A stretch of 64,000 bases of DNA, from NCBI GenBank assembly GCA_021371795.1, contig JAJFVK010000013.1:186001-250000 (forward strand), given 5' to 3'. Positions 27,216-31,804 of the stretch are shown here, one piece after another. This DNA comes from Planctomycetaceae bacterium. Lineage in GTDB: Bacteria; Planctomycetota; Phycisphaerae; Sedimentisphaerales; UBA12454. Made by a program: the position numbers and the translations under genes. The notes under the pieces were generated by a model that was not told where the DNA came from, did not search any database, and saw only the letters and a list, made by a program, of their open reading frames with translations. Numbering within the stretch: position 1 is the first letter of the stretch; each line of letters starts with the position of its first letter.

Positions 27216-28190
27216 TTATTTTGCGGTCAACAACCAAAACACCAATATTGCGGCGATAATCCTGTAGATGCCGAATGGGGTAAGGCCGTGGTTGGTGAGC
27301 CATTTTACAAATCCTTTTATTGCCAGAATGGCGAAAATCATACTGAAAAGCAGCCCCACCGCCATACCATCAAACCCAACAACCTGTGTAAGAACCGCCC
27401 AATCTTCCAGACAGGATATAAATGTTGCCCCCAAAAGAGTCGGAAGCGCCAGAAGAAAACTGAATTCCGCGGCCGTAACCATATCCAGTCCGACCAGTAC
27501 CGCTGCTACAATCGTAATCATACTTCTTGAAGTTCCCGGCCACATCGCCAGAACTTGAGCGATACCTATGATTGCCGCCTGCCAATAAGAGATATTTACA
27601 ATTCCAATTACAGACAATCGTTTTTTTCTGAACCCCATACACTCAACGATAATCATTATCACACCGCCGACAGCCAAACCGTAAGCGACAGGAACAGGAG
27701 CAAAAAGCTGCTGCTCGATAACTTTGTGCAGCGGCAAGCCTATTATTGCGGATGGCAAAAACGCAACCAGCAAAAGGAAAAACAATTTTAAACCATCACG
27801 ATTCCTCCCCAGCAATCCTGTACAAATATCAACAACCCTTCTGCGATAGAGTCCGACCACCGCCAGAATCGCTCCAGACTGTATAACAATGTTAAAAGAA
27901 TTAATCGCTTCCATTTTATCTTTATCTAAAACTCGCCCAAACGGCCCAATATGGTCGCTAAAATGCGTCAATCCCATAAAATGGCCGGCAAGAATAAGAT
28001 GCCCGGTCGAAGAAACAGGCAGATATTCCGTCAGGCCTTCTACTATTCCTAATATCGCGGCGTGAACAACAGATATTTTCTGAACGTCCGACTGCTGCTG
28101 AACATCGTTCACGTCCCCGTTTGCCGCGAAAATAAAAAATGAAATACTAAAAACAAACAGGAGTGTAAAGATTAACTTGTGTCGTTTCAT
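27216..28190 (-). CDS. uppP: Undecaprenyl-diphosphatase
   Basis: 324 residues, longer than E. coli UppP (273) because of an N-terminal signal-like helix and a periplasmic linker (1-42). Core motifs: GIVEGLTEYLPVSSTGHL (49-66) and GTSRSM in the second repeat. Removes a phosphate from undecaprenyl diphosphate so the carrier can be reused in peptidoglycan synthesis. It follows pgpA by 33 bases, forming a small lipid-phosphatase pair. Confidence 0.93.
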   Translation of the reverse strand: MKRHKLIFTLLFVFSISFFIFAANGDVNDVQQQSDVQKISVVHAAILGIVEGLTEYLPVSSTGHLILAGHFMGLTHFSDHIGPFGRVLDKDKMEAINSFNIVIQSGAILAVVGLYRRRVVDICTGLLGRNRDGLKLFFLLLVAFLPSAIIGLPLHKVIEQQLFAPVPVAYGLAVGGVIMIIVECMGFRKKRLSVIGIVNISYWQAAIIGIAQVLAMWPGTSRSMITIVAAVLVGLDMVTAAEFSFLLALPTLLGATFISCLEDWAVLTQVVGFDGMAVGLLFSMIFAILAIKGFVKWLTNHGLTPFGIYRIIAAILVFWLLTAK

Positions 28191-28223: not shown

Positions 28224-28706
28224 TCAACTGCCCATTACAACGAATCTTGCAAGGTAGGTAACAATGCAGACAACCGTCCCTGCCATTACGCCGGCAACCA
28301 AATCGTCCGCAAGAATACCCAAACCTCCGTTAAGCTGCTCCATTTCGCGAACAGGCGAAGGCTTCCAAATATCAAAAATTCTGAAAAGTATAAACGCCGC
28401 TATCGCAGGCGGTAAAACTTTACCACTGGTTACAGCCGCTGGGAATAACGCGACTGCCTGGCCGGCGAATTCATCTATCACCACCCAGCCGGGGTCTTTT
28501 CGGCCGAAATGTTTGGCAAAAAACACACATAAGACACTTGATATTACGATAGCCGCCAGAAGAAAAACAATCGAGATCATCTGTATCGGCCAAAAATAAT
28601 GAACAGCCAGAAACGCCGCCAGCATCAGCAAACTGCCGAATGTGCCGGGCATCACAGGTATAAACCCTATGCCAAAACAGGAAAGTACCATATTTTTCAT
28701 TTTCAT
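28224..28706 (-). CDS. pgpA: Phosphatidylglycerophosphatase A
   Basis: 160 residues, four membrane helices. PgpA signatures: GIGFIPVMPGTFGSL, VVIDEFAGQAVALFP, and FDIWKPSPVREMEQLNGGLG followed by ADDLVAG. Dephosphorylates phosphatidylglycerol phosphate to give phosphatidylglycerol. Divergent from the zinc operon at 28827. Confidence 0.93.
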   Translation of the reverse strand: MKMKNMVLSCFGIGFIPVMPGTFGSLLMLAAFLAVHYFWPIQMISIVFLLAAIVISSVLCVFFAKHFGRKDPGWVVIDEFAGQAVALFPAAVTSGKVLPPAIAAFILFRIFDIWKPSPVREMEQLNGGLGILADDLVAGVMAGTVVCIVTYLARFVVMGS

Positions 28707-28764: not shown

Positions 28765-28793
28765 TTGACTTACGCCTGTTTAAAAGCTATTAT
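28765..28793 (+). promoter_or_regulatory. Promoter of zur-znuACB
   Basis: -35 box TTGACT (28765-28770), 17-base spacer, -10 box TATTAT (28788-28793). The operator palindrome begins at the last base of the -10 box. Confidence 0.7.
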
Positions 28794-28814
28794 TATTGCA
28801 ACATTGTTGCAATA
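28794..28814. promoter_or_regulatory. Palindromic operator of the zinc operon
   Basis: A perfect 21-base palindrome; its inner 19 bases are ATTGCAACATTGTTGCAAT. It directly abuts the -10 box and ends 12 bases before the ATG of the Fur-family gene, the usual placement of an autorepressor site. Confidence 0.75.
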
Positions 28815-28826
28815 CGAGACAGGACT

Positions 28827-29243
28827 ATGAATATCGAAGATATTCACAAAACTATAAAATCCAAAGGCAAACGCCTGACAAAAGTCCGCAAAGCGATTAT
28901 TGAAATCCTGATTCAGTCGCCTTGCCTGCTTTCAACGTCTGACCTTCTGTCAAAACTCAAAGCCCGCAGAATCCAGCCGGACAGGTCAACAATGTACCGC
29001 GAACTAATGTTTCTGGTGCAAAACAGTATTATTAATAAAAATATCATCGCGCAAAAAGATTATTTCGAACTGCCGACCGACCATCACCATCATCTGGTCT
29101 GCACCGGCTGCAACGCCATCAAGAAAGTAATTATGGGCAATCATCTGGTCAAAGAAGAAAAACTGCTTGAAAAAAATCATGAATTTACGATTACAAACCA
29201 CTCTGTAGAGTTCTACGGCCTTTGCAGAAACTGCCGGAAATAA
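28827..29243 (+). CDS. zur: Fur-family zinc regulator (Zur-like)
   Basis: 138 residues from ATG 28827; an in-frame ATG-like start at 28761 would lie inside the promoter. Winged-helix domain (about 15-85, with DRSTMYREL as recognition helix), then the dimerisation domain with the HHHHLVCTGC metal motif and a C-terminal CRNCRK. First gene of an operon with a zinc-type ABC transporter, so Zur is preferred over Fur. A perfect palindrome overlaps its promoter, suggesting autorepression in zinc-replete cells. Confidence 0.88.
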   Translation: MNIEDIHKTIKSKGKRLTKVRKAIIEILIQSPCLLSTSDLLSKLKARRIQPDRSTMYRELMFLVQNSIINKNIIAQKDYFELPTDHHHHLVCTGCNAIKKVIMGNHLVKEEKLLEKNHEFTITNHSVEFYGLCRNCRK

Positions 29244-29248
29244 TAACT

Positions 29249-30229
29249 ATGAAAAAAATCATATTCACAATACTTGTTATATTAATAATTATGGCTGGAC
29301 TTTTCACAGCAGTAAAATCCAGCCGCAAGCTTCAGCGGGATGACGGTAAAATCACAATTGTTACAACGCTGTTCCCGTTATACGATTTCGCGAAAACAAT
29401 CGGCGGCGATAAGGTTAATGTCTCGCTATTACTGCCGCCCGGCGTTGAGCCTCACTCATTTGAACCAACCCCCGGCGATATCGCGAAAATCAGCAATGCT
29501 GATATTTTCATTTTCACCGGCGAATTTATGGAGCCATGGGCACACGAAATTTTGAGCGGAATTTCGAACAATAAACTTATCGTTGTTGTTGCAAGCACAG
29601 ATATAAGTCTGATACCGGCGGCACAAAAACACGAACACCATCACGAACAAAACGAAGAAGCTGAGCACCATGAACAACACGTACATAATGAACATGAAGG
29701 TATGGACCCGCACATCTGGCTTGATTTTGATAATGACAAAATAATTATCGACAATATCACAAACGCTCTTTGCAAAGCTGACTCCGCGAATACTGATTTT
29801 TACAAAAGCAATGCCGAAGATTATAAAACGAAACTTACTCAACTTGATAATTCCTACAAAACACAACTTTCCGGCTGCAAAAGCAGGACAGTTATTTTCG
29901 GCGGCCATTATGCTTTCGGCTATCTGGCGAATCGATACGGCTTACAATATCTCGCCGCACAGGGACTTTCGCCGGATTCAGAACCAACCGCACAGGACAT
30001 CATCACACTTATCGAACAAATCAAAAAAGAGAACGTTCATTATGTTTTTTATGAAGAGCTGACAAGCCCGAAAATCGCGGAAACTTTGACTAATGAAACC
30101 GGTACAAAAATGCTCCTGCTCAACGCCGGCCATAATGTCAGCAGAAAAGATTTGGAAAATAATGTTTCATTCATTGATATAATGGCTGAAAACCTGCAAA
30201 ATTTGAAAACAGGATTGGAATGTAAATAA
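29249..30229 (+). CDS. znuA: Zinc ABC transporter substrate-binding protein (ZnuA-like)
   Basis: 326 residues from ATG 29249 (SD GGAAA, 9 bases). Signal-anchor helix (about 3-25) without a lipobox Cys. Cluster A-I binding-protein ligands: GVEPHSFEPTP, DPHIWLDF, and GGHYAFGYL. Between the first two is an unusually His/Glu-rich loop (about 128-157) with HHHEQNEEAEHHEQHVH, typical of zinc-scavenging ZnuA proteins. Follows zur by 5 bases and precedes the ATPase by 4. Confidence 0.93.
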   Translation: MKKIIFTILVILIIMAGLFTAVKSSRKLQRDDGKITIVTTLFPLYDFAKTIGGDKVNVSLLLPPGVEPHSFEPTPGDIAKISNADIFIFTGEFMEPWAHEILSGISNNKLIVVVASTDISLIPAAQKHEHHHEQNEEAEHHEQHVHNEHEGMDPHIWLDFDNDKIIIDNITNALCKADSANTDFYKSNAEDYKTKLTQLDNSYKTQLSGCKSRTVIFGGHYAFGYLANRYGLQYLAAQGLSPDSEPTAQDIITLIEQIKKENVHYVFYEELTSPKIAETLTNETGTKMLLLNAGHNVSRKDLENNVSFIDIMAENLQNLKTGLECK

Positions 30230-30233
30230 AAAA

Positions 30234-30998
30234 ATGGCAATCATAAAAATTAATGATGTCTCAATCTCTTACAATGCTCACGAAGCATTGAAGGATGTTT
30301 CGTTTGCAATCGAACCGGGCGATTTTATCGCACTTGTCGGCCCGAACGGCGCTGGCAAGACAACGCTTGTAAAATCTATTTTCGGCCTGGTATCGCTAAA
30401 TTCAGGAGACATAGAATTATTCGATACGCCGGCAAAAAGATTCGCCGATTGGGGCAAACTCGGCTATCTGCCGCAGCAGTCTTCGACAATCAATCCGCTT
30501 TTCCCGGCAACCGTTGAAGAAGTAATAGAGCTTGGTTTGTTATCGCAAAAGAAAAATCCGAAAAGTATTACCGGTGAAGACAAAACAAAGGTCAATGAAA
30601 TAGTCGAAAAATTAAAAATAACTGACTTAAAAGGAAGAATGCTAAGTGAGCTTTCCGGCGGTCAGCAGCAAAAAGTCCTTTTGGCACGCTGTCTTGTTTC
30701 CAACCCGCAACTGCTGATTTTCGATGAGCCTTCGACAGCGCTCGACCCGGATTCGAGAGAATCTTTTTTTGAGCTTATCAAAAATTTAAACAAGCAGGAT
30801 GGCATTGCGATATTATTGATTACGCACGATGCCGGTTTCGTAGGAAAATACGCACAGAAGATGCTCTACCTCGACAAAAAAATTGTTTACTTTGGCAATT
30901 TCCGAGAATTTTGCAAGTCGGATGATATGCGTCAGTTCTTCGGCGAACATTATCAGCATATAATCTGTCACCAGCATGATCATAAGAGCACAAATTAA
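30234..30998 (+). CDS. znuC: Zinc ABC transporter ATP-binding protein (ZnuC-like)
   Basis: 254 residues. Walker A GPNGAGKTT, Q-loop LPQQSS, ABC signature LSGGQQQKV, Walker B LLIFDEPSTAL and the switch His in LLITHDAG. The C-terminus ends HICHQHDHK, again His-rich. Its stop overlaps the ATG of the permease gene, so the two are co-translated. Confidence 0.94.
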   Translation: MAIIKINDVSISYNAHEALKDVSFAIEPGDFIALVGPNGAGKTTLVKSIFGLVSLNSGDIELFDTPAKRFADWGKLGYLPQQSSTINPLFPATVEEVIELGLLSQKKNPKSITGEDKTKVNEIVEKLKITDLKGRMLSELSGGQQQKVLLARCLVSNPQLLIFDEPSTALDPDSRESFFELIKNLNKQDGIAILLITHDAGFVGKYAQKMLYLDKKIVYFGNFREFCKSDDMRQFFGEHYQHIICHQHDHKSTN

Positions 30999-31804
30999 TG
31001 GAAATAATAAACTTTTTACAATACGCATTCATTCAAAAGGCTTTTCTGGCCGGTTCATTCATCGCTGTAACTTGTGCGGCGTTGGGAATGTTTCTGGTTC
31101 TTCGCAAAATGTCGCTGATTAGCGACGGCCTTTCGCACGTAAGTTTCGGCGCAATCGCTATCGGCCTGTTTTTCGGCACATACCCGTACTATATCGCGGT
31201 TCCGATTGTTATGGCTGCTTCATATTTGATTTTGAAAATCACTGAAAAGGCGAAAGTTTATGGCGACGCGGCTATCGGCATTGTCTCGGCTGTCGGCATC
31301 TCCGGCGGCGTGATTATCGCGAGCCTTTCAAAAGGTTTTAACGTTGACCTTCTTAGTTATCTTTTTGGAAATATTCTTTCCATCCGAACAAGTGAAGTAG
31401 TCTTGTCCGTACTGCTTTCGCTTGTCGTACTGGCGATTCTTTACTATTATTACTGGGATTTATTTTCCGCCACGTTCGATGTCGAATACGCAAAAACCAC
31501 CGGCATAAAAACCAGCCGAATCAGTGTGGTTTTGACACTGCTAACATCTCTTGTGGTTGTGCTTTCTGTGAAAGTTGTCGGCGTTATGCTCGTATCATCG
31601 CTTATGATTTTGCCTGCCGCAGCCGCACTTCAAAACGCAAAGGGGTTTCGTGCCGCGATTTTCATTGCATGCTGTTTTTCGCTGATTTCCGTTTTGCTCG
31701 GCATAACATTTTCGTTTTTCCTCGATATACCGGCCGGTGCAACGATTGTGATGATTAACGCTGTGATTTTCGCTTTGGCGGTAATCTATAAAAGAATCGC
31801 TTAA
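30998..31804 (+). CDS. znuB: Zinc ABC transporter permease (ZnuB-like)
   Basis: 268 residues with about eight membrane helices. ABC-3 family features: FLVLRKMSLISDGLSHVSFGAIAIG near the N-terminus and MLVSSLMILPAAAALQ. Completes the zur-znuACB operon. The dGTPase-like gene on the opposite strand ends two bases beyond its stop, leaving no room for a terminator. Confidence 0.94.
   Translation: MEIINFLQYAFIQKAFLAGSFIAVTCAALGMFLVLRKMSLISDGLSHVSFGAIAIGLFFGTYPYYIAVPIVMAASYLILKITEKAKVYGDAAIGIVSAVGISGGVIIASLSKGFNVDLLSYLFGNILSIRTSEVVLSVLLSLVVLAILYYYYWDLFSATFDVEYAKTTGIKTSRISVVLTLLTSLVVVLSVKVVGVMLVSSLMILPAAAALQNAKGFRAAIFIACCFSLISVLLGITFSFFLDIPAGATIVMINAVIFALAVIYKRIA

Follow-up and report, generated by a model that had tools for sequence, protein, structure and literature searches.

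A 21-base perfect palindrome directly behind the -10 hexamer of a zur-znuACB operon is, we are confident, the operator of the adjoining Fur-family regulator, a protein that most likely senses zinc and that would repress both zur-znuACB and a second operon. This predicted Zur operator is ordinary in kind; its letters, and some of the genes it would control, are new. The site, its position in the promoter, its recurrence, its target genes and its co-occurrence with a regulator type were computed; from these we infer binding, the identity of the metal and repression. Among the papers listed by searches of open-access literature, none presented this word as a Zur box and none dealt with zinc control in Sedimentisphaerales. 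The window, the whole 64,000-nucleotide stretch of DNA that was analysed, holds the following features:

28765..28770, + strand, -35 hexamer TTGACT of the zur promoter, unchanged as TTGACT in two relatives
28788..28793, + strand, -10 hexamer TATTAT, 17 bases past the -35
28794..28814, no strand, 21-base perfect palindrome, proposed single-dimer Zur operator, with the core TGCAAC-N3-GTTGCA at 28797-28811
28827..29243, + strand, zur, Fur-family regulator of 138 aa (Pfam FUR 65.2 bits; recognition helix PDRSTMYREL; CxxC...CxxC)
29249..30229, + strand, znuA, zinc ABC substrate-binding protein with a His-rich loop (Pfam ZnuA 285.9 bits)
30234..30998, + strand, znuC, ABC ATPase (AztA and the other best NCBIfam matches stay under the cut-off)
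30998..31804, + strand, znuB, ABC-3 permease (Pfam ABC-3 217.6 bits)

Read in order, the promoter consists of TTGACT, a 17-base spacer, TATTAT, TATTGCAACATTGTTGCAATA, 12 bases and the ATG at 28827; the upstream, divergent pgpA gene (28224-28706) leaves 120 bases between itself and zur. The original prediction described an exact 21-base palindrome ending 12 bases before the zur start, and both points held. It had also taken the first base of the palindrome to be the last base of the -10 box, which needs correcting: the palindrome starts with the base after TATTAT. An alternative TATTAT at 28791-28796 would overlap the palindrome, and the spacer would then be 20 bases.

Built as 10+1+10 around an odd centre, TATTGCAACATTGTTGCAATA exceeds every other perfect palindrome of the window in length, the runner-up having 17 bases. 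When the window was simulated 60 times with a first-order Markov model, palindromes with arms of at least 10 bases arose on average 0.18 (odd) and 0.10 (even) times per 64 kb, where one was observed; by our own arithmetic, these frequencies give about 0.0005 such palindromes expected in the 120-base intergenic gap. The 17-base inner pattern, with up to three mismatches allowed, occurs five times in the window against 5.8 expected, and since it is not over-represented the exact site stands alone. Its dyad symmetry fits a Fur-family dimer.

Two types of published Zur consensus were tried near zur, and no match was found: neither the E. coli consensus nor the 7-1-7 word TGATAATNATTATCA, which we take to be a Fur/cyanobacterial Zur-type word, is present there. 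E. coli-type and TGATAAT-type boxes were accordingly rejected as candidates near zur, in agreement with the earlier remark that the text of the site is unlike the classic gammaproteobacterial Zur box. Elsewhere in the window, positions 27647-27661 read CGATAATCATTATCA, one mismatch from TGATAATNATTATCA, within an ORF (27216-28190) whose product is, judged by its sequence, presumably undecaprenyl-diphosphatase-like.

We propose that a metal-loaded Zur dimer, most likely zinc-loaded, would occupy TGCAAC-N3-GTTGCA. Lying over promoter elements of zinc-uptake genes, the operator adjoins the -10 of zur-znuACB and would cover the expected transcription start, where bound Zur would block RNA polymerase; when zinc is short, Zur would release the operator and zur-znuACB would be made. 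Acting in trans, Zur would also occupy the operator at C4:94481, before an operon for His-rich and PEP-CTERM proteins. Gene content and promoter overlap suggest zinc-dependent autorepression.

The regulator belongs to the Fur family by its fold. PF01475 covers its residues 13-130 (65.2 bits), and its winged helix resembles Fur-family structures with Z up to 8.4 over residues 1-96; confidence is low for the model's C-terminal half. It falls under every NCBIfam cut-off, including that of the Zur equivalog NF008646 (42.5 of 167 bits), a score that lowers the Zur name and not the Zur role. The closest sequence matches are Fur and PerR structures. A check of the sensory zinc ligands found DHHHH and FEL, without a Cys before the His cluster. 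Linkage to zinc uptake is direct, as zur lies immediately upstream of znuACB in its own genome (G000) and in G001, G004 and G005. The one further Fur-family gene of the own genome, G000:C4:137829, groups with PerR-like proteins in the tree.

A motif scan of the genome, suggested with the original prediction, led to the second operon: the only two places with at most one mismatch to TTGCAACNNNGTTGCAA both lie in promoters of zinc-type operons, at zur-znuACB and at C4:94481, where the site sits directly behind TATAAT in the same placement as at zur. All 11 two-mismatch sites of the genome lie inside ORFs and were dismissed as extra targets; with two near-exact sites, the predicted regulon here is therefore two operons. 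The second operon (L005:3950-6519, on contig C4 of G000) encodes a small His-rich protein and PEP-CTERM, pseudopilin-like (H-X9-DG type) and dockerin-like proteins, the last label assigned by eye. The His-rich protein bears HSHDEGGHDEHHCPIC, is membrane-anchored or exported, and has a weak DUF2946 match under the cut-off. Presumably, the operon is an extracellular zinc-capture set. No ZigA match was found in the own genome at the threshold used. As a separate observation, the gene set of the second operon is kept together in several families of the order.

The second operon recalls Anabaena ZepA (All3515), which in PMC10957091 is likewise a Zur-box-controlled exported PEP-CTERM protein encoded near a Fur-family gene, with Fur-family genes beside zepA reported in PVC genomes too. 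The likeness has limits. The all3515 family matches the PEP-CTERM protein here weakly, at the C-terminal part, and below the NF040463 (all3515/ZepA) cut-off (27.8 of 75 bits); in relatives the scores were 22.9, 21.7 and 27.1 bits in three, with two others not listed. The Zur sites described in that paper are also other motifs, namely Anabaena-type, a 16-bp proteobacterial one, and a Clostridia-like one in Luteolibacter.

Absence of the site before the zinc-uptake genes of relatives had been named in advance as the observation that would tell against a Zur operator. When relatives were searched, the site recurred before zur-znuACB, ZIP-zur, membrane protein-zur and His-rich operons. Of 59 near relatives (own genome counted), 38 hold the word with no more than one mismatch. 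The tighter pattern WTGCAACNNNGTTGCAW was scanned in 248 genomes of the class, 57 from the order itself and 191 from outside it. It occurred in 29/57 genomes of the order, presumably Sedimentisphaerales, against 0/57 for the reversed control; outside the order but within the class, pattern and reversed control alike were found in 3/191.

Thirty of the 33 sites in the order lie upstream of zinc-type operons (zur, ZIP, Znu, an unnamed membrane protein, His-rich), which are of four kinds: Fur-family gene-znuACB, membrane protein-Fur-family gene, ZIP-Fur-family gene, and His-rich/PEP-CTERM. Counted among the second kind is G057, where the contig ends inside the membrane protein. In G045 the ZIP-Fur-family operon goes on with genes for a His-rich protein and for ZnuA; the G256 contig breaks off within ZIP, and any regulator there would be out of view. 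The remaining three sites comprise two inside ORFs (G015, G020) and one, at a contig end (G006), left unassigned.

The same association was found starting from genes. Upstream regions of the membrane-protein gene were collected at 80 named loci, mostly from Phycisphaerae/Sedimentisphaerales MAGs and found by protein alone, of which 79 gave a usable region. The exact core TGCAACNNNGTTGCA was present in 58/79, and 65/79 had a site within two mismatches, leaving 14/79 with none at that threshold; the reversed word gave 0/79 exact and 2/79 within two. For the best 30 loci, which share genomes with the larger set, the figures were 23/30 exact and 27/30 within two (control, 0/30 and 2/30). Two pooled sets, in each of which some loci had been fetched via the motif, gave 70/109 and 43/72 exact and 82/109 and 54/72 within two. 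In 6/109 upstream regions the site is in tandem, as two exact copies 31-39 bases apart.

Closer to the window genome, the zur promoters of the congeners G004 and G005 carry the box at the same place, a few bases short of the start codon. The congener G001 keeps TATTATTAT plus the box, but at a distance of 198 bases from zur. Other DNA, with a hairpin-like repeat (GTGGGCTTTAGCCCAC), separates promoter and operator from zur at this locus (L063:3388-4021). Four genomes of the same genus or family (G002, G003, G007, G009) have one Fur-family gene, PerR-like where read, and no site. An exception is G011, with a one-mismatch site before a membrane-protein gene and no second Fur-family gene found.

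The text of the site raises the question of nickel. TTGCAA-CATTG-TTGCAA is the exact Nur consensus text, and the window site matches all positions stated for the Streptomyces coelicolor Nur box, tTGCaa-N5-ttGCAA (PMC3919588); both regulators belong to the Fur family, and the Nur structure 3eyy is among the structural matches (Z 6.5). We nevertheless consider it very unlikely that the site is a Nur-type box read by a nickel sensor. The genes seen behind the site encode ZnuACB (its ZnuA being His-rich), ZIP carriers, ZigA and ZnuA, and no nickel-uptake or SOD gene was recognised in the operons at the 30 order sites. By sequence, the regulator is not close to Nur, whose structure scores lower than Fur, PerR and Zur structures. 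Within the N5 the C and G are fixed and the outer T is variable, among sites picked by the exact core, and the Nur box is therefore constrained at other letters.

A shade less probable still is that the palindrome acts as an RNA hairpin in the zur leader, by riboregulation or as a terminator. A 9-bp stem does form when the 21 bases are folded as RNA (z -3.1; -9.5 kcal/mol for 47 nt), but the first arm would be largely lost from the expected start, and the fold from 28800 is without the stem (z -1.5). Neither an Rfam match nor a terminator was found, and in relatives the word lies upstream of the -10 and so would not be part of the RNA, a point against an RNA element. Chance we reject almost entirely: palindromes this long do arise about 0.28 times per 64 kb, but this one is the longest in the window, and its word reappears at promoters that are orthologous or linked in function, the controls being clean (29/57 vs 0/57; 58/79 vs 0/79).

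The membrane protein that often has the predicted Zur operator before its gene, and a Fur-family gene after it, has homologues in 71/98 order genomes (e.g., L047:4147-4863, L263:4001-4723) and was not found in the window genome. It is about 240-280 aa long and His-rich, with six to seven long predicted helices and the conserved motifs FHPxHV, TLSD, HxGFxExWY and LPCCxSDIxFP. Searches gave no Pfam match above threshold, no NCBIfam match and no sequence relative in the PDB. Fold comparison of a model with mean pLDDT 78 gave nothing confident either (best Foldseek E 0.57), which is not proof of a new fold. The family is probably zinc-related, and the protein is a candidate zinc transporter. At its promoters, inspected by eye, the left half-site replaces the -35, and behind the right half there is often a word resembling TATAAT. 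An operator just after the -10, as in the window, and one at the -35/spacer, as at these promoters, both fit repression.

How the box is read can be compared with E. coli. In PMC4219657 and PMC6103462, a Fur-family Zur likewise acts before zinc-uptake genes, on a dyad over the promoter (znuABC, pliG, others) with RNNNYxxxRNNNY per dimer, and the recognition-helix arginine contacts the first purine (PMC4219657); the range of Zur boxes and regulons is covered by PMC6103462, a review, and PMC8000910. The core here, GCAAC-NNN-GTTGC, is exactly RNNNYxxxRNNNY, as one dimer. The E. coli box differs in its letters, TGWNAYRWTATAWYRTNWCA, and in taking two dimers on znuABC, whereas TGCAAC-N3-GTTGCA is a GC-anchored single-dimer site, tandem in some relatives. 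A K or R two residues before the T/S of the TxYR recognition helix was present in 61/61 box-linked regulators, a set that includes those linked through the membrane-protein gene alone. Among other Fur-family proteins, 2/36 had this residue, 26/36 did not and 8/36 could not be parsed.

The box-linked regulators are not uniform in their metal stretch, which is QCHPHFTC or a near variant in most families and DHHHHLVC (YFELPTDHHHHLVC) in the window lineage. The tree was built from 60 of 97 Fur-family proteins (21 of 58 QCHPHF rows). In the best tree the window regulator stands beside Fur-like proteins (97/88) and the QCHPHF group forms its own clade (100/99). The AU test did not reject a clade common to both (p 0.126), and separate trees for each half of the protein did not resolve the placement of the window regulator; a replaced regulator is therefore no more than a lead. 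The box may have stayed in place through a change of regulator and transporter; alternatively, the window regulator may be a fast-evolving form of the QCHPHF line. It is a tentative and rather doubtful idea that the operator word outlived its partners, most families reading it through a QCHPHF-type regulator of the His-rich polytopic membrane protein, which would be a new zinc permease family, and the window lineage having another, more Fur-like regulator and ZnuACB, with the exported zinc-capture operon staying.

The original prediction spoke of a planctomycete-type Zur operator. Recurrence before zinc genes upholds this within the order, but elsewhere the word is patchy. Among 294 planctomycete genomes, the exact word occurred in 14 of the 283 outside the order (15 sites), against 5/283 (6 sites) for the control. 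It is therefore neither confined to the order nor general in planctomycetes. Zinc-type genes lie behind 4/15 of these sites: in G433 the membrane protein, in G370 ZnuA (with the site over the start codon), and in G343 and G405 ZigA, the last above its curated cut-off (605 of 600 bits). No zinc gene was recognised in the 3-kb loci of G335, G292, G475, G484, G337, G520, G341 and G333 (one of the two G333 sites looked at), nor alongside the sites of G172, G237 and G099. The exact core was present at 2/29 scanned ZigA loci, G355 and G546; a thirtieth, L379, yielded no recognised ORF. The box thus precedes ZigA in four planctomycetes (G405, G343, G355, G546), as in known systems with the ZigA/COG0523 zinc chaperone under Zur. 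Ten membrane-protein homologues outside the order had no site within two mismatches.

Two loci outside the order deserve a separate description. At L368:1435-4783 (G405, from another class), the box has an imperfect second copy upstream, and the genes behind it encode a 175-aa exported protein, ZigA, a 216-aa protein and a His-rich protein. At L369:1971-4285 (G388), a gene pair for an ABC ATPase and an FtsX-type permease lies 104 bases behind an exact box and may be one more zinc-linked system.

As it stands before zinc-uptake genes in many relatives, the word sketches a probable regulon for zinc starvation in bacteria that have been little studied. For this order, the analysis offers a predicted zinc-repressor operator word with a small, testable regulon, and ties uncharacterised exported and membrane proteins to zinc. 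The coincidence with the text of the Nur box cautions against using a box by itself to name a Fur-family regulator, and the findings make a case for comparing operator text with the recognition-helix residue (K/R before TxYR).
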